This document shows positions 5,282 to 21,379 of a stretch of DNA of 40,633 bases, one piece after another. Within the stretch, counting starts at the first letter, position 1; each line of letters starts with the position of its first letter. The stretch comes from Verrucomicrobiota bacterium. GTDB taxonomy: Bacteria > Verrucomicrobiota > Verrucomicrobiia > Opitutales > Opitutaceae. The stretch lies in contig JANYJB010000063.1 of assembly GCA_025361935.1 (NCBI GenBank), positions 1 to 40,633 on the forward strand. The letters are read 5' to 3'. The notes under the pieces were generated by a model, which saw nothing but the letters and a program-made list of their open reading frames with translations, was not told the DNA's origin and made no database searches. The translations under genes were made by a program, and so were the position numbers.

Positions 5282-7867
5282 ATGGATATGAACCAACTCA
5301 CCCAAATGTCCCGCCAGGCTGTGACCGATGCGCAGTCCGAGGCGCGCCGTCGCGGCAACAACGAGGTGGAGACCTGGCACCTGCTGCACGCGTTGCTCGC
5401 CCAGGAAAACGGCATCGTGCCCGCGTTGATCGGAAAACTCGGGCTAACCGTGAGAGCCCTGCAACTTGCCGCCGAGCGTGAACTCGACCGCATCCCAAAA
5501 ATCTCCGGCAGCGTGGACGCCTCCAAGATTTACGTCACGCAGGCGATGAACGAAGTCCTCACCCGTGCCGAGGCCGAGGCGAAGTCGCTCAAGGACGATT
5601 TCGTTTCCGTCGAGCATCTCTTCTTCGGACTGATCGACGTGGCCAAGCCCGATGGCCTTGCGAAATATTTTAAATCCTTCGGCATCGAGCGCGCCAAAAC
5701 CCTCGCCGTCCTTAAAACCTTGCGCGGCGCCCAGCGCGTGACCACCGACAATCCCGAGGCCACCTACGCCGCGCTCGAAAAATACGGTATCGACCTCGTG
5801 GCGCAGGCGAAAAAGGGCAAGATGGACCCGGTGATCGGCCGCGACGACGAGATCCGCCGCACCGTGCGCATCCTTTCGCGCAAAACCAAAAACAACCCCG
5901 TGCTCATCGGCGAACCCGGCGTCGGCAAGACCGCCATCGTCGAGGGTCTCGCGCAGCGCATCGTGCGCGGCGACGTGCCCGAGGGGATCAAGGACAAGAC
6001 CATCTTCTCCCTTGATATGGGCGCGCTCGTCGCCGGCGCGAAATACCGCGGTGAATTCGAGGAGCGCCTCAAGGCCGTGCTCAACGAGGTGAAGCAGGCC
6101 GAGGGCCGCATCATCCTCTTCATTGACGAACTCCACACCATCGTTGGCGCGGGAAAATCCGAGGGCGCGATGGACGCGGGCAATCTCCTCAAGCCCATGC
6201 TCGCGCGCGGCGAACTCCACTGCATCGGCGCGACCACGCTCGACGAATACCGCCAGCACATCGAAAAAGACGCCGCGCTCGAGCGCCGCTTCCAGCCCGT
6301 GCTCGTCGAGCCGCCTTCCGTCGAGGACGCGATTTCAATCCTACGCGGCATTCGCGAGCGGTTTGAACTGCACCACGGCGTGCGCATTCAGGATAACGCG
6401 CTGGTCGCCGCCGTCACCCTTTCCAACCGTTACATCAGCGACCGCTTCCTGCCCGACAAAGCCATCGACCTGATGGACGAGGCCTGCGCGATGATTCGCA
6501 CCGAGATGGATTCCGCCCCGCAGGAACTCGACGCGCTCCAGCGCCGCGTGCTCCAACTCGAAATTGAAGAAGCCGCGCTCAAGCTCGAAAAGGACGACGC
6601 CTCGAAACATCGCCTGGAAGCCCTCCGCAAGGAGCTCGCCGACGCGCGTTCGCAGACCGCCGGCTTGAAGGCGAAGTGGGACAAAGAAAAAGCCTCCGTA
6701 AACGCAGTGCGTGCCGTCCGCGAACAGCTCGACGCCGCCCGTATCGAACTCGAAAAAGCCGAGCGCGCCTACGACCTCAACAAACTCGCCGAGCTTCGCC
6801 ACGGCAAGATTCCTCAGCTTGAGGCCGAGTTGAAGAAATCCGAAACCACCGCCGCCAAGACCGAGCTCTTCAAAGAGGAGGTCTCCGCCGAGGAGATCGC
6901 CGAGATCGTTTCCAAGTGGAGCGGCGTGCCCGTGACGCGCCTCATCGAGGGAGAAAAGGAAAAGCTCCTCCGCCTCGGCGAAGTGCTGCACGAGCGCGTG
7001 ATCGGGCAGGAGGAAGCCGTGCAACTCGTGACCGACGCCATCCTCCGCGCGCGCGCAGGCATCAAAGACCCGCGCCGCCCCGTCGGCAGTTTTCTTTTTC
7101 TCGGTCCGACCGGCGTGGGCAAAACCGAGCTGGCGAAGACGCTGGCCGAATCCCTTTTCGACACCGAGGCGGCGATGATCCGCATCGACATGTCCGAATA
7201 CATGGAGAAGCACAGCGTTTCGCGTCTCATCGGCGCGCCTCCCGGCTACGTCGGCTACGACGAGGGCGGCCAGCTTAGCGAGGCCGTGCGCCGCAAACCT
7301 TACGCAGTCGTCCTCTTCGACGAGGTCGAGAAGGCGCATCCGGACGTTTTTAATGTTCTTTTACAAGTGCTCGATGACGGCCGAATTACTGACTCCCAGG
7401 GCCGCACCATCGACTTCAAAAATACCATCATCATTCTCACGTCCAATCTCGGTTCGCGCCACCTGCTTGAAGGCGTCGCGGGCGACACGATTCCCGAAAG
7501 CGTGCGCGAGAGCGTGATGGCGGAGCTGCGGAAGACCTTCCGGCCGGAATTCCTCAACCGCATCGACGAGACCATCCTCTTCAAGCCGCTCACGCTGGAC
7601 GAAATCACGCAGATCGTAGATCTGCTATTGGCCGACCTAAATGCCCGTATGGCAGAGAAAAGAGTCACGGTGGTCCTCGACAAAAAAGCCAAGGAATGGG
7701 CCGCCGAAAAAGGCTACGATCCCGTCTTCGGCGCGCGTCCGCTCAAGCGTTTCCTGCAACGCCAGATCGAGACGAAACTCGCGCGCGCTCTCATCTCGGG
7801 CGACGTCAAGGAGGGCGCGACCGTTACCTTTAAGATCAGGGAAAATGAACTCGTTATGGCGACCTGA
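5282..7867 (+). CDS. clpB: ATP-dependent disaggregase ClpB (Hsp100)
   Basis: An 861-aa hexameric AAA+ chaperone that threads aggregated proteins and works with DnaK. The N domain occupies about residues 1-145 (two Clp-N repeats). NBD1 has Walker A GEPGVGKT near 210 and Walker [11 protein letters not shown] long charged coiled-coil M domain follows (roughly 405-525), and it separates ClpB from ClpA/ClpC. NBD2 has Walker A GPTGVGKT near 608, the pore loop [13 protein letters not shown] and Walker B VVLFDE. The C-terminal D2-small domain ends near residue 861. No IGF/LGF ClpP-docking loop is seen. There is no clear Shine-Dalgarno; a second in-frame ATG lies two codons in. The 150-bp upstream region shows no CIRCE element and no convincing sigma-32 promoter. 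Confidence 0.97.
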
Positions 7868-8053: not shown

Positions 8054-11038
8054 GTGTCCGCTAGAATTCTTCTGGTAAAAACAGGTGACGCCGCCGCGTC
8101 TTTTCAAGCCAAGGCAGTCGTGGTTGTGCCGTCGGGTCTTTACGCACGGATAATCAGGGACGCGGCGGAACTCGATGCGGTGGTCCAGTCGGAGAAGTTT
8201 GATCTCATCGTTCACGACGGCCGTTTAGTTTCGGGTGCGCCGCTGGCTTTTATCGAAAAGATCAGGTCGCACCAGTCCGTCGCGCCCATCATCCTCGTCT
8301 GCGCCAAGCCGGAACTGGATGTGATTGTGAAGGCGATCCGTCTCGGTGTGCGCGACTTGTTTCACCCGCCGGTGAACCTGAGCGGGCTCTTCACTTGCGC
8401 CACCGAGCTTCTGCAGGCGCGTTTTGAGGGTAATTCCTCCGCCATGATGCAGTCCTGCCGGTCGGAGCTGACGCATTTCCTGTCGGACGCGCCGCCGGCC
8501 GCCGGTTCCGCGCCGGCTGCGGGAGCCGCCGCCGGCATTGGCCAGAAGGAGCTTCAAGCGCTTCACAAAGAGTGCGACCGCCTTGCCTCGCAGTTTCGGG
8601 AAGAAAATGAAAAACGCCTCGCCGCCGAGGCTGCGGTCGGAACCCGTCTGGCGGCGTTGGATGAGAGGGAGAAACAGCTTGTCGAAACAGAGACGGAGTT
8701 AGTCGCCGGACAAGCCCGCGTCGTTGCAGAGCGCGAGGCCGTCGCCAAGCACATGGCGTCTTTGGAGCAGGAGCGCCAACGCCTAGCCGAGGCAGCTGCC
8801 CAGCTTGAGGAGCAGGGCAAATCCCTCGATCCCGCCCGTGAAGAACTCGCCAAGGCCCAGCAAGCTCTCGAAGGAAAGCTGGCGCAGCTCGAGGCTGACA
8901 AAGTCGCCTTCGCCAAGCGTGAAAGCCAGTTTTCAAAAACGATCAAGGGCCTTGATTCGCGCGAGGCGGTATTGGCCGAAACAGGCGCCCGCCTCGCTGC
9001 CGAGACCGCCGAGCTGGAGAAATCGCGGCAGGCACTCTCCGCCGAGGAGGCCGACCAGGCTGCGACGCGCGCGAAACTCAAATCCGAGCTGGCGACCTTT
9101 GAGAAGGAGCGCGCCCGGCTTGCCGAGTCGCTGGCCGAACTCGCCCGCCGCGAGCAATCCCTCGCTCCCGCTCGGGAGGAGCTCGACCAGGCCCGTCAGG
9201 AAACCGAGGAAAAACAGGCGCAGCTCGAGGCCGAGACGGCGGCGCTGGCGATGCAAAAGTCCCAGATCGCAAAAACCTTCAAGGGTTTCGAGGAACGCGA
9301 AGCCGCGCTGGCCGCAAAAGACGTAAAAATAAACGAAAAAGCCGCCGAACTGGAGAAATCCCGGCAGGCGCTTTCCGCAGGTGAAGCGGAACAGGTTTCG
9401 TTGCGAGCCAAGGTCACGGCGGAGCTGGCCGCGCTTGAAAAAGAGCGCGGACGCCTCGCCGGTGTGACCGCCGAGCTCGAACGCCGCGAACAAGCCCTGG
9501 CCCCGATGCGGACGCAGCTCGACAAAGCCCTGCAGGACGTCGAAGGGAAACAGGCGCAACTCGAAGCCGACACGGCGACGCTGGCGAAGCAAAAGGCCCA
9601 GATTGAAAAGACGGCCAAGGGCTTCGAGGAACGCGAAGCCACGCTGGCCACAAAGGACGCGAAAACGAACGAGAAGGCCGCCGAGCTTGAAAAAGCCCGC
9701 AAGACCTTTGCCGCCGAGGAAGCCGCTCAAGCGGCGGCCGGCGTAAAAATCAAGGCGGAGGTGACTGCGTTGGAAAAAGAGCGCGAGCGTCACTCTGGCG
9801 TGACCGCCGAACTCGAACGCCGCGAGCAAGCTTTGACCCCGATGCGGGCGCAGCTCGACAAGGCTTTGCGGAACGTCGAGGGCAAACAGGCGCAGCTCGA
9901 AGCCGATGCGGCGGCGCTGGCGAAGCAAAAGTCCCAGATCGAAAAAACCGTCAAGGGTTTCGAGGAACGCGAAGCCGCGCTGGCCGCAAAAGACGCGAAG
10001 ACAAACGAAAAAGCCGCCGAGCTGGAAAAAGCCCGTCAGGCGTTTGCCGCCGACGATGCCGCCCAAGCCGCCGCCCGCTCCCTCTTGAAGGCTTCGGAAG
10101 CCGCCTTGGAAAAGAAGAAATCGCAGTTTGAAGCCGATGCCGCCGGCTTTGACGCCGCGCAAGCCGAGGTGGCGTCCTCGCGTGCGGAACACGCCAAGCG
10201 CGAAGGCGTTTTGTCCCAGCGCGAGCGCACCCTTGCCGAGCGCGAAAAGGCGCTTTCCGTCGAGGAAGCTTCGGTTCGCGCGGCGGTTGCCGAACAGGAA
10301 AAAGCCCTCGCCGACGTGCGCGCCCGGCTGGCTTCGGAAACGGCCCGCCTGGAGAAGTTGCAGGAAACGCTTGCCGCCGAGGAAGCCTCCATGATGCAGG
10401 CGCGCACCGCGCTGAAGGCCGAGACTGCCGCTTTGGCCAAGGAGAAGGCACGTTTGGAGGCGGATGCAGCCGGGTTCGAGGCCGAGCGCGCCGCCGCCGC
10501 CGATTCGCTCAAAGCCGCCGTTCGTCGCGAAGCCGAACTGGCCGCCCGCGAGAAAACCTTGGCGGGTGCGGAGAAAAAGATCGCCGAGGAGGAAGCGCGC
10601 CTTCGTCAGGCGTCCGCCGATTTGGTTGCCAAAACACGTGCGGTCGAGAGTCGCGAGCTGACTCTGGGCACGACGGAGGCGCAGATGAAGGACGCCCAAC
10701 GTAAGCTGGCAGTCGAGCGCGCCGAACTCGACGCCGAGAGCGCCAATGTGGCGGACATTCAAAAGGCGCTTGAGAAATCCGAGGCGCAGTTTCGCAAGCA
10801 GTCCGCCGAACTTGACCAGCGCGAGAAGGCCGTCGAGGCGGCGGAGGCCAAACACACGGCCGCGATGGCCAAGCTCGCCAAGGAACAGGCGTCGCTCCAG
10901 AATACCCGTGCTCAGATGGAGGCCGAGCAGACCGCGCTAGAAGCCGAGGCGGCCGCGTTCGCCGAAAAAGAAAAAGAATTTGAGTCGAAGCGCCGGCAGT
11001 TTCAGGACCATATGAAAACCCTTTTGAACGTCGGCTAA
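8054..11038 (+). CDS. Pseudo-receiver domain fused to a very long repetitive coiled coil
   Basis: A 994-aa protein with no family name that I recognise. Residues 1-125 look like a CheY-type receiver: a beta-strand ILLV, then FDLIVHDGRL with a phospho-acceptor-like Asp55, PIILVCA, and GVRDLFHPP. The acidic pair after beta-1 is replaced by KT, the conserved Thr is Cys83, and the conserved Lys is replaced by Pro, so it is probably a non-catalytic pseudo-receiver. After an Ala/Gly linker (about 150-170), almost all of 170-985 is Ala/Glu/Lys/Gln/Arg-rich coiled coil. From residue 275 it contains at least three full tandem units of exactly 112 residues (16 heptads) plus partial ones on both sides. 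It starts with GTG, without a Shine-Dalgarno. There is no signal peptide or membrane helix, so it is cytoplasmic. The PilM-like gene follows after 18 bp, so the two products probably work together. A filament-forming or scaffold role is inference. Confidence 0.75.
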   Translation: MSARILLVKTGDAAASFQAKAVVVVPSGLYARIIRDAAELDAVVQSEKFDLIVHDGRLVSGAPLAFIEKIRSHQSVAPIILVCAKPELDVIVKAIRLGVRDLFHPPVNLSGLFTCATELLQARFEGNSSAMMQSCRSELTHFLSDAPPAAGSAPAAGAAAGIGQKELQALHKECDRLASQFREENEKRLAAEAAVGTRLAALDEREKQLVETETELVAGQARVVAEREAVAKHMASLEQERQRLAEAAAQLEEQGKSLDPAREELAKAQQALEGKLAQLEADKVAFAKRESQFSKTIKGLDSREAVLAETGARLAAETAELEKSRQALSAEEADQAATRAKLKSELATFEKERARLAESLAELARREQSLAPAREELDQARQETEEKQAQLEAETAALAMQKSQIAKTFKGFEEREAALAAKDVKINEKAAELEKSRQALSAGEAEQVSLRAKVTAELAALEKERGRLAGVTAELERREQALAPMRTQLDKALQDVEGKQAQLEADTATLAKQKAQIEKTAKGFEEREATLATKDAKTNEKAAELEKARKTFAAEEAAQAAAGVKIKAEVTALEKERERHSGVTAELERREQALTPMRAQLDKALRNVEGKQAQLEADAAALAKQKSQIEKTVKGFEEREAALAAKDAKTNEKAAELEKARQAFAADDAAQAAARSLLKASEAALEKKKSQFEADAAGFDAAQAEVASSRAEHAKREGVLSQRERTLAEREKALSVEEASVRAAVAEQEKALADVRARLASETARLEKLQETLAAEEASMMQARTALKAETAALAKEKARLEADAAGFEAERAAAADSLKAAVRREAELAAREKTLAGAEKKIAEEEARLRQASADLVAKTRAVESRELTLGTTEAQMKDAQRKLAVERAELDAESANVADIQKALEKSEAQFRKQSAELDQREKAVEAAEAKHTAAMAKLAKEQASLQNTRAQMEAEQTALEAEAAAFAEKEKEFESKRRQFQDHMKTLLNVG
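8876..10090 (+). repeat. 336-bp in-frame tandem repeats inside the coiled-coil gene
   Basis: Units begin at 8876, 9212, 9548 and 9884, each 336 bp, with the fourth diverging after about 200 bp. Each starts with codons for KxAQLEA and contains the sequence for KGFEERE or a variant. Units 2 and 4, which are not adjacent, share long identical stretches (for example around 9286-9321 and 9958-9993), suggesting unequal exchange or gene conversion. A partial, older unit precedes 8876. Confidence 0.85.
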
Positions 11039-11056
11039 TTTTTCCCCTCCACCGCC

Positions 11057-13093
11057 ATGTCCACCGTCAATCGTGTATTCGTAGAGATTTCCCCGCATTC
11101 CCTGCAGCTTGCGGTCATCGCCGGCCGCCGACTAGTCGCCTGCGGCGATTATGCCTTTGATGAAAAAGAGGCGCTCGCCGCGTTTATCGCCGTGAACGGC
11201 GTGAAAAATATCGCCCTCGCCCTTGTGTCGCCACGGCAGCCGTTCGCACGTCTTTCCGGCGAGGAAGCCGTGACGGTGCGCTCCGAAGAGGGGCTTCTGG
11301 CCTGCGCGCAGGCCACGTTCACGGGACTGGATTCTCCGTTTTCCGCCGTGGCTTGCGATGCGGCCACCGGCAAGCCGGTGGATCCAGCCGGACAGGAGCC
11401 TTGGTTGCTTGCAGGAACGACGACGGAAAGCCTGACGGCTGCGCGCGATCAGCTCGCCGCGCTTGGCCTGCCGGCGCCGGCTTTGACGGCGCTCGCGCTG
11501 CCGGCGCAACTGGGCACCGTAGTCGCGGCGTTGCAAGACATGCCCGAGTCCGCCCGGGTGGCGGTGCTGGCAATGGGGGAAAATGATTCCGTGATCGGCC
11601 TGGTGTCTGCTGGCGGGGTCGAGGCTGTGCGGTCGGTGGCGGTTGGTTATATGCAGATTTTTGATGCGGTGCAGGTTGAGCTTGGCCTCAAGTTCCGGGC
11701 TGCCGCCCCGAAGTTGTTTTTCAACTCCTCCTACGACTTTGGCGACGCGGCCGACAAGATCGCCGCCCGTCTCGCGGTCACGATGCAGGGTGCGCTCGCG
11801 GAGTTTTCCTCCCGCCCTGAAATCTTGCATGTCGTTGGTTTTCCCGAAAAGCAGGAGTGGCTGGCGGTGGCGATGGGGCGGGCGCTTGGCATGACGGCGT
11901 GGACCCCGGATGCGGCAAAGATTTGTTCGCAGCTTGAGATGGAGGTCGCCGGGGAAATCGCTCCGAGGGCCAATACGCTCCGGCTCATCCAGTTGGCCGC
12001 AGTCAACGACGCCACCAAGGCCGCTTGGCTTCCCTTTTCGCTCGGGAATCGTCCGAAGCCCGAGGCCGCGGCACCCAAGAAACCCGTGGCGGCGTCTCCC
12101 GTCGTGAAGCCGCCGGTCTCGGCGGCAAAGCCGGTTGCACCCGCGCAGTCCCGCCCAGCGCCCAAGCCTGCGCCGGCCGCCGCCCCGGTAAAATCGCCCG
12201 TGGTGAAGGCTCCGGTTGCCACGGTCCCGTCTTCCGAAAGTCCGGCTCCGGAGCCGACTGAGGCTGAGGCGGTTTCCGCCAAGCGTCCATGGGCCATTTA
12301 TGGGGTCGTGGCCCTCATGGTTATCATAGCCGCCGTGGCGGGCGTGAAGTTTTACTCTTACAGTCAGGCTCAGGCCAAAGAGCTCGCCTTGCGCCAGATC
12401 GCCGAAAAAGCCCGCCAGGATGCCGAGCGCGCTCACCAAATCGCGGTGGAGAAAGCCGAGGCCACGTTGAAAATAAACCCTGCGACCGGATTGCCCGCCA
12501 ACTGGGTTTCTGCGGATATCGGCTCCACGATGTTCGCCGGTTCGTCGGGTTTTAAACAGGGAGCATTTCGCATGAACGGCTTCGGTCGCAATATCGGCAA
12601 CTTCAAGGACAGCTTTCTATTCAACTATGTGCCGCTGGCGGGTGACGGGGAGATCACCGCCCGGGTGATGTCTCTGACGGGCGCGACTCGCGTCGCCAAG
12701 GTCGGCTTGATGATGCGGGGAGCCTTGGATGACGGGGCGAGCCATGTTGCCCTGCTGGTCGAAAACGATGGCCGGGATCTGAAGGTGGCCTGGCGCGAGA
12801 AGGTCGGCGTGTATGCGGCGACCATCAATGTTGCGGGGGACACGGTGTCGATCGTGCCGATCTGGCTGAGGCTCGTGCGCGCGGGCAACACGATCACGGC
12901 CTACCAATCTTCCAACGGGAAGGCTTGGCGAATCGTGCCCGGCACACCGTTAACCGTGCAAATACCCGGTGTAATCTACGTCGGCATGGCCGCATGTTCG
13001 CGTGAGGATACGCCCACGATTGCCACGTTCGACCATGTGAGTGTGCCGGGCTGGGACTCCTTGCCGCCAATCCTGGCGGGCATCGAGAAGTAA
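11057..13093 (+). CDS. PilM/actin-like domain, membrane helix and DUF1349-type ConA-like domain in one protein
   Basis: A 678-aa protein with an unusual architecture. Residues 1-330 resemble the actin/Hsp70-like ATPase fold of PilM-type proteins: a first phosphate-loop-like segment VFVEISPHSLQLAVIAG, a second around VAVLAMGENDSVIGLVSAG, and a later HVVGFPEKQEWLAVAMG segment like the adenosine motif. These motifs are degenerate, so ATP binding is unproven. Residues 333-408 are a Pro/Ala/Lys-rich linker, followed by one transmembrane helix at about 412-431 (YGVVALMVIIAAVAG) and a short charged coiled coil. Residues 475-670 resemble the DUF1349 concanavalin-like family (LPANWVSADIG, GDGEITARVMS, VGLMMRGAL, WLRLVRAGNTITAYQSSNGKAW, ATFDHVSVPGW). 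The topology would link a cytoplasmic actin-like domain to an extracytoplasmic, possibly glycan-binding domain. It lies 18 bp after the coiled-coil gene, so an operon is likely. Confidence 0.72.
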   Translation: MSTVNRVFVEISPHSLQLAVIAGRRLVACGDYAFDEKEALAAFIAVNGVKNIALALVSPRQPFARLSGEEAVTVRSEEGLLACAQATFTGLDSPFSAVACDAATGKPVDPAGQEPWLLAGTTTESLTAARDQLAALGLPAPALTALALPAQLGTVVAALQDMPESARVAVLAMGENDSVIGLVSAGGVEAVRSVAVGYMQIFDAVQVELGLKFRAAAPKLFFNSSYDFGDAADKIAARLAVTMQGALAEFSSRPEILHVVGFPEKQEWLAVAMGRALGMTAWTPDAAKICSQLEMEVAGEIAPRANTLRLIQLAAVNDATKAAWLPFSLGNRPKPEAAAPKKPVAASPVVKPPVSAAKPVAPAQSRPAPKPAPAAAPVKSPVVKAPVATVPSSESPAPEPTEAEAVSAKRPWAIYGVVALMVIIAAVAGVKFYSYSQAQAKELALRQIAEKARQDAERAHQIAVEKAEATLKINPATGLPANWVSADIGSTMFAGSSGFKQGAFRMNGFGRNIGNFKDSFLFNYVPLAGDGEITARVMSLTGATRVAKVGLMMRGALDDGASHVALLVENDGRDLKVAWREKVGVYAATINVAGDTVSIVPIWLRLVRAGNTITAYQSSNGKAWRIVPGTPLTVQIPGVIYVGMAACSREDTPTIATFDHVSVPGWDSLPPILAGIEK

Positions 13094-13180: not shown

Positions 13181-14080
13181 ATGATTGCCGAGCCCATCCG
13201 TTTTTTCAACCGTTACACCGCTTCCGTCGAGACCGAGCAGATATATGGGGAAAAGTGGCTGCGCTGGGCCTACGAAACCCCGGCGGGCCGTCTGGCGGTG
13301 GCGGCGCTGTTCAAACGCGCGTGGTTTTCCCGCTGGTATGGCTGGCGCATGGACAAGCGTGCAAGTGCGTCGAAGGTGCTACCCTTCATCCTCGATTACG
13401 GCCTCGATGTGGATGAGTTCGCGGGCAAGCCGTCCGACTTTGCATCGTTCAATGAGTTTTTCTACCGCGCTCTTAAAAAAGAGGCGCGGCCCATCGCCGC
13501 CGGCGACGACACGGCCGTGCTGCCGGCCGACGGACGGCACCTGGTGCTTCCCGACGTGGATGCGGCCGGCGGATTTTACGTGAAGGGCGCGAAGTTTACG
13601 CTCGCCGCGTTGCTTGGAGACGAGGCGCTGGGGAGGGAGTTTGCAGGCGGCGCCATGGTGATCTCGCGGTTATGTCCGGTGGATTATCACCGGTTTCATT
13701 TTCCGGTGGCGGGGACGCCGGCGGTGCCGAGGTTGATCAACGGAGTTCTGTTTTCGGTGAGCCCGATCGCGCTGCGGCGCAACGTGGGTTACCTCGTGCA
13801 AAACAAACGGGCCGTCACGCTGATCGACGCGCCGCGTTTCGGTCGGGTGGCCATGCTGGAGGTCGGCGCGACTTGCGTGGGCAGCATCAAAAATCTGTTT
13901 CCCGAAGGCCGGCCGGTGGAGAAAGGGGCGGAGAAAGGTTACTTCACGTTTGGCGGGTCATGCGTGATCACGGTTTTTCAAAGGGGGCGTATTCGCTTTA
14001 CGGATGACTTGGTGGCGCAGAGCGCGCGGCATATCGAAACCTACGCCAGGATGGGCGATCAGCTTGGCATGGCGCGGTAA
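13181..14080 (+). CDS. psd: Phosphatidylserine decarboxylase proenzyme
   Basis: A 299-aa pyruvoyl enzyme that makes phosphatidylethanolamine from phosphatidylserine at the inner membrane. SFNEFFYRALKKEARPI, VLPADGRHLV and the catalytic-site segment SRLCPVDYHRFHFPVAG are present. The self-cleavage motif is FGGSC with Gly259-Ser260; Ser260 would become the pyruvoyl group. This GGS form occurs in the Clostridium/Chlamydia-like subgroup instead of LGST. INGVLFSVSPIAL and VGATCVGSI also match. The ATG at 13181 gives a full-length family N-terminus (AEPIRFFNRYT). The 87-bp gap after the ConA gene shows no terminator with a T run, so co-transcription with the genes upstream is possible. A phosphatidylserine synthase gene is not in the window. 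Confidence 0.93.
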   Translation: MIAEPIRFFNRYTASVETEQIYGEKWLRWAYETPAGRLAVAALFKRAWFSRWYGWRMDKRASASKVLPFILDYGLDVDEFAGKPSDFASFNEFFYRALKKEARPIAAGDDTAVLPADGRHLVLPDVDAAGGFYVKGAKFTLAALLGDEALGREFAGGAMVISRLCPVDYHRFHFPVAGTPAVPRLINGVLFSVSPIALRRNVGYLVQNKRAVTLIDAPRFGRVAMLEVGATCVGSIKNLFPEGRPVEKGAEKGYFTFGGSCVITVFQRGRIRFTDDLVAQSARHIETYARMGDQLGMAR

Positions 14081-14132
14081 TCCCTTCGGTCTTGCAAGAG
14101 GGGAGCGGTCGGTTGCACCATCGTCAGGCTGA

Positions 14133-14216
14133 GCTCGGGTGGTGGAATGGCAGACACGAAGGTCTTAGAAGCCTTTGCCGTAAGGCGTGCAGGTTCAAGT
14201 CCTGTCCCGAGCACCA
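14133..14216 (+). tRNA. tRNA-Leu (anticodon UAG)
   Basis: Acceptor GCTCGGG (14133-14139) pairs with CCCGAGC (14206-14212), with discriminator A14213 and encoded CCA at 14214-14216. The anticodon stem AAGGT/GCCTT closes loop CTTAGAA, giving TAG (UAG), which reads CUA. A long variable arm (TGCCGTAAGGCGT) is as expected for class II tRNA-Leu. The T arm is GCAGG-TTCAAGT-CCTGT. Length is 84 nt. Confidence 0.95.
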
Positions 14217-14328
14217 ATCAGAATCGGTCGGTGAATTTCCTCCGTGCTTTGCAGCGGGTCATTGCCGTAAAAATCCAAGGGTGAAAAATGTCCGCGTCTA
14301 TTCTTGAATTACGAAGATGATTTATCGC

Positions 14329-14353
14329 AGATTACGTTGACGTAATCTTTTTT
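14329..14353 (+). terminator. Intrinsic terminator or attenuator between tRNA-Leu and the TPR-ExbB-ExbD operon
   Basis: An 8-bp stem AGATTACG/CGTAATCT with loop TTGA runs directly into six T residues. It lies 112 bp after tRNA-Leu and only 27 bp before the ATG at 14381. No convincing promoter fits in those 27 bp, so it may terminate the tRNA transcript partially, or attenuate transcription into the operon. Confidence 0.75.
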
Positions 14354-14380
14354 AACATTTTTTGTGATAGAAATTCCCCA

Positions 14381-17293
14381 ATGCGTTTAACCCCAAGACG
14401 CCCGCTCATCCGTGCAGTATTGTCATCCCGTTTCGCGTGCGGCCTCTGCTTTTTCTTGATCTCAGGCTTGGCCGCAAACGCCCAGCAGGTTCAGGTGCCG
14501 ATCGCACAGATTCTGTTTGAGGCCGAGGCCAACGTGAAGGCGAAAAAACCGGGGGATGCGGCCCCGTTGTTCGACATGGTTTTGTCGCGGGTGGACAAGG
14601 GCGAGACGCTTCGCAGCGGCCAGTCTCTGGACCGAATTGAGTTTCAGGCGGCCGCGGCGTTCTTTCAGGTTGAAAACTACGAACGTGCGATTTCCATCGC
14701 GCAAAAATCCCTCGGACGTGTCTCCTCCGGAACCGTCGCATCTGACATCCGTCTCGTGCTCGGCCTCTCCCTTGCGCTTCAAAAAAAATACACCGAAGCC
14801 GTGACAGTTTTTGCCGAGTTGGAAAATTCGCCGAAGTATAGGGAAAAGGCGCTTCTCTACCGTGCCATGGCCGCACAGGCCGCCGGCCAGCCGGACGTCG
14901 CCATTGACGCGCTTACCCGCACCCTAAAGTTTTCCGCCCACAACGGAGATTGGGCCGATGCGGTTCTCAGTCTCATCGCGCTTCAGCTTCAGCAGAAAAA
15001 TCTTCCCGAGGCCCGCGCCGGACTGGAGGCGCTCAGGGGCAGCTTGGACTTGGTGGACAACGTCGTCGGTTTGAACGCCCTGAGCTTGCAGCTTGGTGAT
15101 ACCTTGATCGAGGCCAACGATATCCCCGGCGCACTCACCGCCTACCGCACGGTTTTCCCCCGTGAGACCGTGTTGAGCCGTCAGAAAAAACAAAACGCCC
15201 GCATGGAGGCCTTGCTCGCCCAGCGCAGGGCGATCGCCGGCGCGGGCGCCGACGATGCCGACTCGGTGCGCCGCTTGGACGAGCGCCTGAAGGCCACCAA
15301 GGTTGCGATGGCCGAAATCGAGGCCAGGGCCGATTACAATGCTTTCCTGTATTACCGGCTTGGAAACGCCTTTTATCAGCGGGGCGGCACATGGGAGGCG
15401 GCCTTGTTGTTTGAGCGTTTGTTGGACGAGTTCCCCATCTGCGATGACCGGGAACGTGCTTACCTGGCAATGGTCCGCTCCTACGCCGAGTCCGGTCGCG
15501 TGGCCAAAATGTCCGACGCGATCAATCGGTTCGCGCGCGCGGCCCCCAACAGCGAACTTCTCGCCCAAGCCCTCTTTGTGGGCGCCCAATCCGCCTCCGA
15601 CGGCGGTCGCGTGGACTTGCAGATGAAGTTTCTTGAAACGGGCGTAAACCAGTTCGGCAAATCGCCTCTGCGCGAGTTCATGCTGATCATGCAGGCAAAC
15701 GCCCATTTTACTGTCGGGCATTTCGATCAAGCCCGCACCTCGGTGGAAAATTATCTGGTTTCATATCCGGAAGGCCGTTTTGCCGAAGATGCCCTCTATT
15801 TGCGCGCGATGAGTTCGCTAGTAACAGGCAGCAATAAACAAGGCATCACGGAGATCGGCGAGTATCTTAAAAAATATCCCGAGGGGCGTTTCGTTTCAGA
15901 CGCCCGCTTCCGCATCGCCTCGGCCGAATTTGCCCTGCAAGACTATGACGCCGCTTCCAAGCACGTTTCCGAGTGGCTTGCCGATTACCCTGACAATTCC
16001 CAGCGAGGGGAGGTCTTGTCGCTCCAAGGAGACATTTACGCCGGCCAGCAGTTGATCGACCAAGCCATCAAGAGCTACCGTGCGGCGCTGTCGCTTCCTC
16101 TTTCCGATGACTTGCTCGGCTATGTGCTCGATGAGCTTACCAAGCACTACCAGGCTCGCCGCGAATTCAATGAGGCCGTGCTCATGTGGAAGGATTTTGC
16201 CCGCGAGAAACCCGACCATCCCTTCGTTGTAAACGCCGCCTACTGGATCGGTCGCCTGCGCGCTCGCGAGGGCAAGACAGACGAAGCCATCGCGCAGATG
16301 AGCGCTATCGCCATCCGTTATGTTGGCGACCCCAGTCGCGATTCTTTGGAGCGCCTGTTGAGCCAGATCGCCGCGTTTGTCGCCAAGCCCGCCAAGTCAA
16401 ATGCAGGGGGAAAGCGCTCACCTGTCCCAACCATGTCTGAAGTCGAGCAGCGGATCGCCGGCCTTTTTTTGGCTCCGGTTCCAACCGCGTCCAAGTCCGA
16501 CAATTCCAATGAAAACGACGTGAACGCCCTAGCCAAGGCGACCACCGAAGCCCGCGTGCTATTCACCACCGCCGAGGTGGCCTCGTTCCGCAAAGACAAA
16601 ACATACCGTGACGCCTTGTTGACGCGCATAGCGGAAAATCCTCCCGAAGCCTTGCCGCCGGGCATCCTTGGGAGCGTGGCCGATCTCCTTTACGAACAAG
16701 GCAAGGTTGAGCAGGCCAAATCGTTTTATGATTATTTGGTGACCCGCTATTCCAAGTCGATTTACGCGGATTTCGGTTATGTGGGACTCGGTGAGATCGC
16801 CTACGCCGCCGGCAATTACGACACCGCATACACCCAATTCTCCAATGCCATCGACCGGGCTGGAGCCCGTTTCAAGTTGATGGAGGCGACCCTCGGCCGC
16901 GCGAAGACGCTTTTCGCCCAAGGCAAGCTTGACCAAGCCAAGGAACTCTTTGAGCAGGTGGCGAGCAACCGCCAGTGGCGCGGCGCCTCGACCGCCCAGA
17001 GTGTTTACTCGCTTGGTGCGATCCTCGAGAAGCGTGGCGGCTCCGAAAACCTTGCCCAGGCGCAGGCCCACTTCCAGCGGGTTTATCTTTCTTATCGGAA
17101 ATTCACCCCTTGGGTTGCGCGTGCCTACCTAAGCAGCGGCGAAACCTTTGAAAAACTCGGCCAGCTTAAAGAAGCCCTCGCCACCTACCAAGAAATGCTG
17201 CGCGACGAACGCCTGGCCGGGTTTCCAGAAACCGAAAAAGCCCGCGCCCGCGCCGATGAGCTGGCCAAACAGTTGAAAGGAGGTTCGGCATGA
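14381..17293 (+). CDS. Large exported TPR-repeat protein, first gene of an ExbB/ExbD-type operon
   Basis: A 970-aa periplasmic protein with no specific name. Residues 1-34 form a signal peptide (basic RLTPRRPLIR, hydrophobic core, ANA then QQ at the cleavage site). The rest is almost entirely helical tetratricopeptide or YbgF/BamD-like repeats, for example FDQARTSVENYLVSYPEGRF near 450 and QGITEIGEYLKKYPEGRFVSD about 40 residues later, and further units up to the C-terminus (KLGQLKEALATYQEMLRDE). A disordered, Ser/Asn-rich stretch near 680-720 divides the repeats into two arrays. TPR arrays of this kind bind partner proteins. Its stop overlaps the next start by 4 bp (ATGA), and ExbB, two ExbD and a TonB-like anchored protein follow. 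I infer a structural, substrate-recognition or cell-wall-linked role in that machine. Confidence 0.82.
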   Translation: MRLTPRRPLIRAVLSSRFACGLCFFLISGLAANAQQVQVPIAQILFEAEANVKAKKPGDAAPLFDMVLSRVDKGETLRSGQSLDRIEFQAAAAFFQVENYERAISIAQKSLGRVSSGTVASDIRLVLGLSLALQKKYTEAVTVFAELENSPKYREKALLYRAMAAQAAGQPDVAIDALTRTLKFSAHNGDWADAVLSLIALQLQQKNLPEARAGLEALRGSLDLVDNVVGLNALSLQLGDTLIEANDIPGALTAYRTVFPRETVLSRQKKQNARMEALLAQRRAIAGAGADDADSVRRLDERLKATKVAMAEIEARADYNAFLYYRLGNAFYQRGGTWEAALLFERLLDEFPICDDRERAYLAMVRSYAESGRVAKMSDAINRFARAAPNSELLAQALFVGAQSASDGGRVDLQMKFLETGVNQFGKSPLREFMLIMQANAHFTVGHFDQARTSVENYLVSYPEGRFAEDALYLRAMSSLVTGSNKQGITEIGEYLKKYPEGRFVSDARFRIASAEFALQDYDAASKHVSEWLADYPDNSQRGEVLSLQGDIYAGQQLIDQAIKSYRAALSLPLSDDLLGYVLDELTKHYQARREFNEAVLMWKDFAREKPDHPFVVNAAYWIGRLRAREGKTDEAIAQMSAIAIRYVGDPSRDSLERLLSQIAAFVAKPAKSNAGGKRSPVPTMSEVEQRIAGLFLAPVPTASKSDNSNENDVNALAKATTEARVLFTTAEVASFRKDKTYRDALLTRIAENPPEALPPGILGSVADLLYEQGKVEQAKSFYDYLVTRYSKSIYADFGYVGLGEIAYAAGNYDTAYTQFSNAIDRAGARFKLMEATLGRAKTLFAQGKLDQAKELFEQVASNRQWRGASTAQSVYSLGAILEKRGGSENLAQAQAHFQRVYLSYRKFTPWVARAYLSSGETFEKLGQLKEALATYQEMLRDERLAGFPETEKARARADELAKQLKGGSA

Positions 17294-18099
17294 AATTCTT
17301 CCCCTGCATCATTCTCGCGCTGGTCTGCGTCGCTCCTCTGAGCGCGCAACGATATCTCCTTAAGGACGGCAAGGTTCTCAACCAAGCCGATGTCGTCCTG
17401 CGCGACAACAAACTCGTGCAATCCATCGGCAAGGCAGAATCCGGCGGCGCTGAAATAAGCTACGCACTGACCGACGTCGTGCGTCTTGACTGGCCCGAGC
17501 CCGCTGAGATCGACGCGGCTCGTAAGCTCCTCGACTCAGGCAAGGCCGCCGAGGCCGAGGTCCTCGTCACCCCGATCGTCAATCAGTTTGCGATATTCCC
17601 TAAGCAGCCCGGTTCTTGGTTCGCATCAGCCGCCTTGGTGCGCGCCCGCGCATTGGCCGCCCAGACGAAGACGGACGCCGCCGAGCGCGCTGCCAAGGAC
17701 ATCATTGCCGTTTCCGTTGATCCCGATATCGTGGGTTTGGCGCAGATCGTCCTCGCTGAGCAGCAAATCCGCCGTGGCAAGCCGGTCATCGCCGACGCCA
17801 TGCTCAGCGAAATCCTTCGGCGGCACAGCTCGGACGAGGCCGAGGCCCGTGCCGCCCTTCTGCGCGGGGATCTTGCCCTGGCCCGCAAAGACTACGAAGC
17901 CGCCCTTGGTTTTTATCTCCAGATACCGTCGTTTTATGGCTCTCTTGACAGTCTTATGCCGGCCGCTCTCCTAGGCAGCGCCCGGGCCTATCGCGGCTAT
18001 GGTGATTCCAACAAGACCGAGCGTGCTTTCCTTGAATTGATGAACACCTATCCAGCCTCGGCGGAAGCAGCGCTGGCCAAGCGCGAATCCGGCCTTTGA
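17290..18099 (+). CDS. Small exported helical-repeat (TPR-like) protein
   Basis: A 269-aa protein with an N-terminal signal peptide (KFFPCIILALVCVAPLSA, cleavage near residue 19). Residues 20-75 form a short beta-rich segment (RYLLKDGKVLNQADVVLRDN, then a TDVVRLDWPEP strand) resembling a small SH3-like or PDZ-like lead domain. After it come helical repeat pairs: LLDSGKAAEAEVLVTPIV, then ALARKDYEAALGFYLQIP, then YGDSNKTERAFLELMNTYP, which look like TPRs. The gene is translationally coupled to the large TPR gene by an ATGA overlap and lies 40 bp before the ExbB-type gene, so it very likely acts in the same periplasmic complex. Function is not recognised. Confidence 0.75.
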   Translation: MKFFPCIILALVCVAPLSAQRYLLKDGKVLNQADVVLRDNKLVQSIGKAESGGAEISYALTDVVRLDWPEPAEIDAARKLLDSGKAAEAEVLVTPIVNQFAIFPKQPGSWFASAALVRARALAAQTKTDAAERAAKDIIAVSVDPDIVGLAQIVLAEQQIRRGKPVIADAMLSEILRRHSSDEAEARAALLRGDLALARKDYEAALGFYLQIPSFYGSLDSLMPAALLGSARAYRGYGDSNKTERAFLELMNTYPASAEAALAKRESGL

Positions 18100-18139
18100 T
18101 TTTCACACTGCAATCTTCCTTTACGCCCTCCCCACACTT

Positions 18140-18934
18140 ATGAACACCACTCGTTCCCGCATCCTCCCGCTGTTGTGCGCCGCCTTCCTCGCACTGCCTG
18201 CGACCATCTGGGCCGCCGATACGACCGCTCCCATCGTCGTCAAAAAATCCCTCATCCAAGAGCTGAACATGCCCGCGATCTGGTTCCTCCTGATCTGCAG
18301 CATGCTCATCGTATGGTTTGTCCTCGATGTGTTCATGAAGAGCTCGCCAAAGCTACTTCTGGCTCCGGCCAATCTGGAAGCCCTGCGTGATTTCTTCCGC
18401 AAAGGTGATTACCAAGGCGCGCTCAACTACTGCGTCGAGAATCCCAGCACCTTGACCAACGTCGTGCATGCCGGCCTCAAATACTCCCCCGGCGGCCTCC
18501 AAGCCACCGAAGACGCAATGGCTAACGCCATCGTTCGTGAAAACTCCAAGTTTCAAAACAAGATCGCATACCTTTCCGTCATCGGCGTCATCGCCCCCAT
18601 GGTCGGCCTTACCGGCACCGTGCTCGGCATGATCTCGGCCTTCTCGGTGATGGGCCAGGCGGGTGCAGCTGATCCCTCCAAACTCTCCGGCGCCATCGGC
18701 CATGTGCTCCACGCCACCGCCGGCGGTTTGATCGTCGCCATTCCGGCCTTCGTCTTTTATTATCTCCTGCGCAATCATATCTCCCACAAGATGCACGACC
18801 TTTCCGTCACGGTGTCTGATCTTTTTCGCAAGTTCCCCTACGCCCAGCTGGCCGATGTCGAGTTCGACGGTGGCGAATCCTACGCCGCCGCTCCGATTTG
18901 GAACTCCTCCCCGGCGCCTGAAAACCAAGCCTGA
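18140..18934 (+). CDS. ExbB/TolQ/MotA-family proton-channel protein
   Basis: A 264-aa inner-membrane protein. It starts with a probable cleavable signal peptide (1-25), an extension that E. coli ExbB and TolQ lack. TM1 is at about 44-65, then a cytoplasmic domain with LTNVVHAGL, then the conserved TM2/TM3 unit: VIGVIAPMVGLTGTVLGMISAF (about 148-169, with the channel Thr of GLTGTVLG) and HATAGGLIVAIPAFVFYYLL (191-210, with the second channel Thr). These are the hallmarks of the ExbB/TolQ family, which forms the pentamer around an ExbD dimer and uses the proton gradient to drive a partner. The order ExbB-ExbD-ExbD in an operon with an anchored protein supports this. I do not assign it to TonB or Tol, since TonB, TolB and Pal are absent here. 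Confidence 0.92.
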   Translation: MNTTRSRILPLLCAAFLALPATIWAADTTAPIVVKKSLIQELNMPAIWFLLICSMLIVWFVLDVFMKSSPKLLLAPANLEALRDFFRKGDYQGALNYCVENPSTLTNVVHAGLKYSPGGLQATEDAMANAIVRENSKFQNKIAYLSVIGVIAPMVGLTGTVLGMISAFSVMGQAGAADPSKLSGAIGHVLHATAGGLIVAIPAFVFYYLLRNHISHKMHDLSVTVSDLFRKFPYAQLADVEFDGGESYAAAPIWNSSPAPENQA

Positions 18935-18985
18935 GCGCCTCTGGTCCTATTAACCCGCACAGTTTAAACTCAACCCCTTCTTAAC

Positions 18986-19411
18986 ATGGCTGGTGGTGGT
19001 GCCGGAGGTGATGGCGAGCCCGAATTCCAAATCGCCCCGATGATCGACGTGCTCCTGGTGCTGCTCATTTTCTTCATGAGCATCGCCATGACGGCTGTGA
19101 CGCGCTATGATCCGACGATCCAGTTGCCCGCCGCCCCCGATGCGAATAAGAAGGAAGATTCCGTGGGTGAGCTCGTTTTTAACATCGCCTGGCGCTCAGC
19201 CGAAAACCGCGCCGTCACCACGTTTGAAGAGAACGAGGTAAATCTTGACGCCGTCGTGCCCGTCCTAGTGGCCCGCCAGAAAGCCGAGCCCGGCGTCCGT
19301 GTTCTCGTGCGCTGCGACGGCATGACGCCTGTGCGCTATGTTTCCGCCGTGGTCGATGCCGCCGCCAAGGCGGGCATCATCGACGTCACCTTCGCCGCCC
19401 TCAACCGCTGA
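18986..19411 (+). CDS. ExbD/TolR-family protein, first copy
   Basis: A 141-aa protein with a Gly-rich cytoplasmic start (AGGGAGGDGEPE), one membrane helix and a periplasmic domain. FQIAPMIDVLLVLLIFFM contains the essential proton-carrying Asp (Asp21) of the ExbD/TolR family. The periplasmic part ends with VRYVSAVVDAAAKAGIIDVTFA, the standard C-terminal alpha/beta unit. It follows the ExbB-type gene by 51 bp and precedes a second ExbD by 8 bp. A pair of distinct ExbD proteins suggests a heterodimer inside the ExbB ring. Confidence 0.92.
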   Translation: MAGGGAGGDGEPEFQIAPMIDVLLVLLIFFMSIAMTAVTRYDPTIQLPAAPDANKKEDSVGELVFNIAWRSAENRAVTTFEENEVNLDAVVPVLVARQKAEPGVRVLVRCDGMTPVRYVSAVVDAAAKAGIIDVTFAALNR

Positions 19412-19419
19412 CCTGCACC

Positions 19420-19863
19420 ATGAAAATACCCGTGCAACAAGCGAATGCCGACATGGGCTTCCAGATCGCGCCCATGATCGACGTCGTGTTCGTCATCCTG
19501 ATTTTTTTCATGGCGCTGGCGTCGCAGATTCGGATCGAGCAGGTCCTGCAAACCAAGCTTCCCGGTGTGGCGGTCGCCTCCGGCCCCACTGCATTTATTG
19601 ATGAACAAATCATCATGGTGGCCGAAGACTGCGAAGTTACGCTCAACGACGACGCCTACGACTCTCCCCAAAATCACGAGCTGCCCCAGCTCACCGCGAC
19701 TCTGCTCCGGCTCAAGGCCTCGAGTGACGCCGCAAAGAGCAAGGTTGTCGTCACCCTCATCAGCAACCCCGATTCCCCCTACTATCGCACGATCGACGTC
19801 CTAGACGCGCTTGCGGTGGCCGGAATCACCAACGTCACCTTTACCTCCGACGCGGATTTCTAA
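19420..19863 (+). CDS. ExbD/TolR-family protein, second copy
   Basis: A 147-aa paralogue of the preceding gene. GFQIAPMIDVVFVILIFFM holds the conserved Asp21 in the single membrane helix. The periplasmic domain is more acidic and ends in YYRTIDVLDALAVAGITNVTF. Sequence outside the helix differs clearly from the first copy, so this is an old duplication and not a recent one. The next gene begins 4 bp after the stop codon, so translation is closely coupled. Confidence 0.92.
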   Translation: MKIPVQQANADMGFQIAPMIDVVFVILIFFMALASQIRIEQVLQTKLPGVAVASGPTAFIDEQIIMVAEDCEVTLNDDAYDSPQNHELPQLTATLLRLKASSDAAKSKVVVTLISNPDSPYYRTIDVLDALAVAGITNVTFTSDADF

Positions 19864-19867
19864 TCGC

Positions 19868-21379
19868 ATGCCCGAGACTCCCCGTTCCAGCCTTTTCCGC
19901 AAAATTACCGGCAGCGTTCCGCTGCTCATCAGCGTGATTTTGCACGCGATCATCATAGCGTTGGTTGGTTATTTCGTGGTTACGGAGACCATCATCGGCA
20001 AAAAAAAGAAGTTTGAGGCGACACCCCCAGCCGATACCGCATCCCAAAAGCAGCTCGAGCACCGGCTCCAGATCGCCCGCAAAAGCGGCGGTGCCGCGCC
20101 CGTTTCCCCGGTTAACCCACAGCGCATTTTCGCTAACTCAAAGGACGCCTTGCAAATGCCCGAGCTTTCGGAGCTGCCCCAAGTGGGTAAAAGCGCCCTT
20201 GGTGGTGGCTTCGGCGCGGGCGCCGGCATGGCCGGGGCCGGCACGGGTTACGGCACGGGTCTGGGTAATTCCAATGTCAACGGCGCCGGGTTCATGAGCA
20301 TGAGTTTCCTCGGAGCCACCAGTGCGCGCGCCAAAAAAGTCGTGTTCGTGGTTGATGTGGGGCTCCGCCTTCTTGACATCAAAAAGGGCGGGTTTGAGGC
20401 CTTCGCCATCATCCGCGACCAGATGATGCGCCTCGTCAGCAATCTTCCGCCCTCGGCGGAATTTGGCGTCGTGCTCTTCGATTCCGGCGGCGACGACTGG
20501 CTAAAAACTGAACAAAGCACTGGCGATACCATCATCCGTGCCAGCCTTTTCAGGACCACGCTGCTTCCCGCCACCGTAAACAACAAAACCACCTTCACTG
20601 ATTGGATGAGGCCGATCAACGCCAACCCCACCAACTTTGGCATGGCTTCGATCAAGGACGTGACTTCTTGGAAACGCACCGTTCCACCCAATTCCGGCCT
20701 GAAACCCGACTATCGGCCGACCGCCTGGGTCAACGCCGTTCATGCCGCCTTGGAACTCAAGCCCGACACGGTGTTTGTCATTGCGGGCGTCACCTCTTTG
20801 GGAACCTTTCCGACCGACCCAGCCGAGATCGCCAAACGCGAAAAAGAACACGAACGGTCCGTGGCCGAATACAAGAAGCTCGGTTTTGACTTGGAGGAGG
20901 TCGGAAAAGCGCGTCGAGCCGCCCTCGACAAGGCCCGCGCCGAGCTGGATGCGATCAATGCCAAACGCATAGCCCAGGGAAAACCGCCCTTCATCATCAC
21001 CCGCAACCAGCGCATTGTTGATAAAGATTTTCAGACGGAACTCAAAAAGAACGGGACGCCCATAGTCGTGGATGGCAAGGGGTGGACGCTTAAGGATGGC
21101 AAATATATCTGGGCCGTATTTGGGGCCGATAACATTCATAAATGGGAACCCGGCACTGTGCAGGACATGCAGAGCCATATCTCCCGCTTGCAAGCCGCCC
21201 TATTGAAGGATCGTGCTACCCTTAACATTTTCCTTTTCGTGGGCCCCGATGAAAAGCGCGAGAACGATGCCGATGCGCTCGCGCGCATCGCCCGCGCCAA
21301 CGGCGGCCGCTTCGAGCTGCTGACCACCAAGCGACTCCAGGAAATCAAGGCCCGCACCGACGAAGAGGACAAAAAATAA
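19868..21379 (+). CDS. Membrane-anchored protein with Gly-rich linker and degenerate von Willebrand A-like domain
   Basis: A 503-aa protein, last in the ExbB/ExbD operon. I chose ATG 19868, 4 bp after the ExbD stop; a longer open frame from 19811 lies inside exbD and its extra 19 residues look non-coding. Residues 18-38 are one membrane helix after a short basic N-terminus, the same topology as TonB/TolA. A charged segment (44-75) and a Gly-rich linker (111-141) follow. From about 157 there is a VWA-like beginning, KKVVFVVDVGLRLLD, with QMMRLVSNLPPSAEFGVVLFDSG after it. The MIDAS motif DxSxS reads DVGLR, so metal binding is probably lost. A long charged helical insertion (near 320-370) precedes LNIFLFVGPDE and an ANGGRFELLTTKRL ending. 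No TonB C-terminal domain is seen. By position it is the likely energised effector. Confidence 0.78.
   Translation: MPETPRSSLFRKITGSVPLLISVILHAIIIALVGYFVVTETIIGKKKKFEATPPADTASQKQLEHRLQIARKSGGAAPVSPVNPQRIFANSKDALQMPELSELPQVGKSALGGGFGAGAGMAGAGTGYGTGLGNSNVNGAGFMSMSFLGATSARAKKVVFVVDVGLRLLDIKKGGFEAFAIIRDQMMRLVSNLPPSAEFGVVLFDSGGDDWLKTEQSTGDTIIRASLFRTTLLPATVNNKTTFTDWMRPINANPTNFGMASIKDVTSWKRTVPPNSGLKPDYRPTAWVNAVHAALELKPDTVFVIAGVTSLGTFPTDPAEIAKREKEHERSVAEYKKLGFDLEEVGKARRAALDKARAELDAINAKRIAQGKPPFIITRNQRIVDKDFQTELKKNGTPIVVDGKGWTLKDGKYIWAVFGADNIHKWEPGTVQDMQSHISRLQAALLKDRATLNIFLFVGPDEKRENDADALARIARANGGRFELLTTKRLQEIKARTDEEDKK

Follow-up and report, generated by a model that had tools for sequence, protein, structure and literature searches.

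At positions 8054-13093 of the window (the whole 40,633-nucleotide stretch analysed here, one contig of an incomplete 2.5-Mb genome), two open reading frames lie on the same strand with 18 bases between the stop of gene 1 and gene 2, which bears out the two-gene unit of the original prediction (Table 1). ClpB (5282-7867) lies upstream of the pair, and phosphatidylserine decarboxylase (PSD, 13181-14080) lies downstream. Scans for promoters and terminators at the locus gave hits at chance level only. Named relatives are nearly all Opitutaceae/Opitutia of the Verrucomicrobiota; the Opitutaceae are a family of soil and freshwater bacteria. We also observed a same-strand cluster downstream of the pair (window 13181-21379) made up of PSD, two TPR proteins, ExbB, two ExbD and a VWA-like protein with an SxxxH motif (SVILH) in its membrane helix; the ExbB/ExbD/ExbD genes lie 5-7 kb from the pair. 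In a genome of the same genus (G041, locus L033), a second copy of gene 2 sits between PSD and a TPR gene.

Table 1. Features of the gene pair, in window coordinates
Feature	Position	Strand	Description and basis
Gene 1 (RCC)	8054..11038	+	994 aa, pseudo-receiver plus long coiled coil, cytoplasmic; ORF, Pfam/PDB receiver matches, heptad period, no membrane helix
Pseudo-receiver domain, about residues 1-120	8054..8413	+	Alignment of 34 receivers
Coiled coil, residues 166-985	8549..11008	+	Heptad signal, composition; ~120 nm if fully helical
In-frame tandem repeat, 336 bp x 2.8 (112 aa = 16 heptads)	9134..10077	+	TRF, 78% matches, 0% indels
Conserved C-terminal tail of gene 1, FESKRRQFQDHMKTLLNVG type	10961..11035	+	C-termini of about 30 orthologues
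Gene 2 (PMC)	11057..13093	+	678-aa PilM-like membrane protein; ORF
Actin-like PilM-type head, residues 1-330	11057..12046	+	AlphaFold2, Foldseek, profile match to stand-alone PilM
Pro/Ala-rich linker, residues 332-410	12050..12286	+	51% P+A
Single membrane helix, residues 412-430	12290..12346	+	Hydropathy 2.43
Outer DUF1349/ConA-like domain, residues 471-678	12467..13090	+	Pfam sub-threshold; replaced in relatives

The start of gene 1 agrees with the MSAKILL start of its homologues. Its N-terminal domain scored 29.6 bits against Pfam Response_reg, slightly below the 30.2 cutoff, and the aligned family profile matched many solved receivers in the PDB, down to 5e-11. Across 34 aligned receivers of the family the acidic pair is missing, Asp55 is retained as D in 32, and the canonical Lys position is occupied by Pro in 25 and by Lys in none; the response-regulator residue set (acidic pair, Asp, Thr/Ser, Lys) is thus incomplete. 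R96, G98, F103 and P106 are conserved, and the output face is nearly invariant across its R-x-G and F-x-x-P region. The remainder of the protein has a hydrophobic period of exactly 3.50 (power 12.7 versus a maximum of 1.26 in 300 shuffles), and the coiled coil of about 820 residues contains 16.5% E, 24% A and 0.5% P, with Pro and Gly nearly absent. Membrane helix prediction returned none. The receiver matches, heptad period and lack of a membrane segment agree with the cytoplasmic pseudo-receiver coiled coil that had been proposed. Orthologues span about 480 to 1500 aa, and many keep an FExKRxQFQExMKxLL-type tail at their end. Another pseudo-receiver coiled-coil family, longer at about 1500 aa and with FNKPDD or similar replacing HPP, adjoins ClpB divergently at L093:5426-10000, L095:2647-7257 and L103:4358-9022 (genomes G013, G036 and G029).

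The closest analogues of gene 1 are FrzS and AglZ of Myxococcus xanthus, which likewise join an N-terminal receiver devoid of phosphorylation residues to a long coiled coil. In the FrzS receiver the output face is needed and Asp phosphorylation is not (PMC1974792). FrzS, a pseudo-receiver coiled-coil protein involved in controlling type IV pili, interacts with the pilus regulator SgmX (PMC11580455), and AglZ has an atypical receiver in a similar domain plan (PMC1974792). Gene 1 differs in that its receiver mostly keeps the Asp while lacking the acidic pair and the Lys; the likeness drawn here is one of domain plan.

For gene 2, AlphaFold2 predicted the head at pLDDT 93.5, and Foldseek matched it to PilM (3.7e-15), FtsA (2.5e-11) and GspL (4.8e-9). 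The ten best PDB matches were PilM without exception; FtsA came next, and the matches after it included GspL cytoplasmic domains. A PDB search with the single head sequence gave no match and a family profile was required; a profile built from gene 2 heads alone retrieved the stand-alone PilM of the same genome at 1.4e-33. Homology to PilM of type IV pili (PDB 5eq6, 2ych, 3jc8) is therefore statistically clear, and the PilM/FtsA-type actin-like fold anticipated for residues 1-330 was recovered. PilM is soluble and encoded with pilN/O/P/Q, whereas gene 2 has no such neighbours and adds a linker, a membrane helix and a periplasmic domain; its nucleotide motifs are also degraded.

This degradation extends to all 12 aligned gene 2 sequences: Glu replaces Asp and Gly is mostly lost in the phosphate-1 motif, and the Gly pair (GG) of the adenosine motif is degraded. 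In the stand-alone PilM of this genome, too, the motifs are largely degraded. Nucleotide use by gene 2 is therefore doubtful and, judged from their residues, both switch domains (the gene 1 receiver and the gene 2 head) look catalytically dead. These losses bear on an FtsA-like alternative, in which the head would be a genuine actin-like ATPase forming polymers at the membrane and the gene 1 product would bundle them. FtsA is indeed the second-best structural match, but the best is PilM, and as both motifs are degraded in every family member aligned, we regard this explanation as highly improbable. Without nucleotide-binding motifs in the head, an ATP-driven actin-like filament is unlikely, and a static scaffold is the better reading. 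Two further observations concern the integrity of gene 2: a head-only protein of 355 aa (L092:7159-8226, genome G050) lacks the membrane helix and lies downstream of a gene 1 homologue, and frameshifts, which may be assembly errors or mark pseudogenes, break gene 2 in the MAG loci L063, L064, L074 and L082.

Beyond the head, the periplasmic end proved exchangeable. DUF1349 (PF07081) scored 25.3 and 28.5 bits on gene 2, below the curated/gathering cutoff of 32.4, with the last 60 residues matching the end of the profile. Across 48 de-duplicated loci, one head family carries three different ends: a coiled coil with PEGA repeats and TonB_C, a supersandwich, or the DUF1349/ConA-like domain, the last at only three loci (the window, L052 and L053). 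The supersandwich end, roughly 200 aa long and without a Pfam match, has a predicted fold at pLDDT 94.9 that resembles the galactose-mutarotase-like supersandwiches of carbohydrate enzymes, at TM-scores of only 0.4-0.55. A PilM-like membrane protein with an outside ConA domain had been predicted; the head and the single helix stood, but the ConA domain did not hold up as a defining feature, and a sensor role for it found no support.

In the head-domain tree, the ConA group forms one clade (100/100) within a larger clade, also 100/100, that unites supersandwich and ConA types, with the TonB_C types outside. The window, L052/L053 and supersandwich relatives such as L061 have the same ClpB-RCC-PMC-PSD neighbourhood, which argues that the outer end was replaced in place. 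The DUF1349/ConA-like end is thus a late local swap on a constant head and coil. We also noted tandem copies of the window's ConA-like domain in relatives, where they lie within very large frames of about 2000-5700 aa (G041:C2:295669-298374, G013:C1:169255-172323 and G035:C125:57702-62222); the gene 2 end may therefore have been acquired from repeat proteins of this kind. At four loci with the supersandwich end (L066, L070, L071 and L072), opgG (MdoG) and an opgH-like glycosyltransferase gene lie just upstream of the pair; these calls come from Pfam for L072 and from cluster membership for the other three.

The two genes keep company across the family. By strict BLAST, gene 1 adjoins gene 2 in 33 of 48 loci, and cluster membership adds two at contig edges (L065 and L067). 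After we left out three loci that end too soon (L041, L057 and L059), the pair was adjacent in 35 of 45 informative loci, in agreement with the expectation that the genes would stay together in most relatives. With this adjacency and an actin-like fold, neither of the outcomes named in advance as telling against the prediction, a different fold or genes separated in most relatives, was found. The 10 loci without an adjacent gene 1 include a clade of unlinked second copies of gene 2 (L033, L056, L058 and L064) and L035, L036, L039, L044 and L077; at L074, a gene 1 fragment lies 2.6 kb from gene 2. In G006 and G007, two of the genomes with such loci, a search at E<=1e-18 found no relative of gene 1, and G059 has gene 1 with no gene 2 detected, so the pair is not strictly obligate. 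The genes run in the same direction in some lineages and divergently in others, and the linkage has therefore outlived rearrangement.

This persistence through changes of orientation, neighbourhood and outer domain is also what speaks against a merely historical adjacency, in which the products work separately and gene 2 is an envelope glycan-binding protein. Such a separation would suit the loci without gene 1 and the unlinked second-copy clade, and a glycan-binding role would suit both the likeness of the supersandwich end to carbohydrate-enzyme domains and the opgG/opgH-like genes, which act in periplasmic glucan synthesis. Weighing these points, we consider the explanation quite unlikely. 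The recurrent neighbours (ClpB, PSD, HAD, LacAB/rpiB, LptD_N and MdoG) pointed to no shared pathway.

In the neighbourhoods examined, no pilus or secretion gene was consistently linked to the pair, and we found no gspE/F/G/M or pilN/O/P/Q genes. No pil genes adjoin the pair in the window, which upholds the earlier remark on PilN, PilO and PilQ; a pilM-N-O operon encoding a canonical-length PilM lies on a separate contig of the same genome. Elsewhere, this genome encodes five full-length PilB/GspE-type ATPases and several PilT-type ATPases. One alternative is that gene 2 encodes a platform subunit of the GspL/PilM type in one of this genome's secretion or pilus machines, where it would recruit the machine's GspE/PilB-type ATPase, and that gene 1 regulates the same machine. 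GspL of type II secretion (PDB 1w97, 4pht) has the same plan of an actin-like cytoplasmic domain, one membrane helix and a periplasmic part, and its cytoplasmic domains are among the Foldseek matches of the head. By fold score, however, the head is nearer PilM than GspL, and GspL has a ferredoxin-like periplasmic domain and sits in a gsp cluster, whereas gene 2 ends in PEGA/TonB_C, supersandwich or ConA-like domains and has no gsp neighbours. As the genome already holds a canonical-length PilM with PilN/PilO, we find a platform subunit of this kind fairly unlikely.

MglA regulates type IV pili and gliding in M. xanthus. An MglA-sized Arf/Ras-like GTPase was not found in 22 genomes, where matches lie in frames of 364-900 aa, which we take to be the sizes of IF2 and EngA/Der; gene 1 thus departs from FrzS/AglZ in not co-occurring with MglA. 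The same result weighs on the possibility that the pair serves gliding or polarity in the manner of the Myxococcus Agl-Glt system, with gene 1 AglZ-like, gene 2 a GltG/GltJ-like TonB_C linker and an ExbBD/TolQR-type motor. GltG of the Glt gliding complex is an envelope linker with a cytoplasmic domain, a membrane helix and a C-terminal TonB_C, and offers a precedent beside the pseudo-receiver protein AglZ (PMC3169522). The PEGA/TonB_C relatives of gene 2 follow that plan, and GltG, with PilM and GspL, is among the closest analogues of gene 2; TonB_C in divergently arranged relatives, the atypical receiver and FrzS-like plan of AglZ, and the nearby ExbB/ExbD/ExbD genes would also fit. Yet GltG has an FHA head where gene 2 has a PilM-like one, the window's gene 2 product lacks TonB_C, and its Pro-rich stretch lies ahead of the membrane helix, presumably in the cytoplasm.

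The motor itself fares no better. SxxxH, the motif through which TonB energy transducers couple to ExbBD, is missing from the membrane helix of gene 2 in all 44 homologues, yet is present in the VWA-like protein that the ExbBD operon of the window encodes, and linkage of the pair to ExbBD is not conserved among relatives. An ExbBD-powered TonB role for gene 2 was rejected on these two counts. With no MglA-sized GTPase and no SxxxH, an Agl-Glt-like gliding motor is disfavoured, and we judge it very unlikely.

We tentatively favour a static role: the pair would form an Opitutaceae-specific transenvelope scaffold in which a rod docks on a pseudo-PilM head, plausibly with a pilus or secretion client, a proposal that we put at somewhat less than an even call. 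Gene 1 would supply a long cytoplasmic coiled-coil rod whose pseudo-receiver cap serves protein binding, not phosphotransfer. Gene 2 would be its membrane receptor, with the PilM-derived pseudo-actin head in the cytoplasm (a topology that the positive-inside comparison, at 2 versus 2 basic residues, neither favours nor disfavours). A flexible Pro/Ala arm and one membrane helix would join this head to a periplasmic end, which may grip cell-wall, glycan or outer-membrane partners. Head and rod would be the constant core and the periplasmic end its exchangeable part. Once docked on the head, the rod could cluster or position further machines of the inner membrane, with type IV pilus or type II secretion-like ones the likeliest, modelled on an FrzS-like polar beacon for gene 1 and on PilM/GspL for gene 2. 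The many PilB/PilT-type ATPases of the genome make such a client plausible, but no pilus or secretion gene is consistently linked to the pair. A bolder extension, which we think on balance unlikely, is a new class of bacterial envelope anchor: a dead actin fold as the membrane-spanning receptor for an FrzS/AglZ-like coiled-coil cytoskeleton, with plug-in periplasmic ends changing its grip, in a family where no MglA was found.

The two-gene module appears undescribed; its component folds are known. Neither the Pfam and NCBIfam descriptions nor the papers searched contained a combination of a PilM-like head, a membrane helix and an exchangeable periplasmic end with a pseudo-receiver rod, and literature searches gave no paper on PilM with PEGA, TonB or Verrucomicrobia. 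Here the PilM/GspL actin-like fold has been put to use away from pilus and secretion operons: it forms a head that is tethered to the membrane, apparently without nucleotide, and paired with a pseudo-receiver rod. Should the two products bind each other, they would offer a testable transenvelope scaffold for Verrucomicrobiota and a natural experiment in which the periplasmic end alone is swapped. The survey took in 289 genomes from across the phylum, and strong matches came only from the window's family. A record titled Akkermansia muciniphila (L067) carries an Opitutaceae-type locus and is probably a mislabelled MAG.
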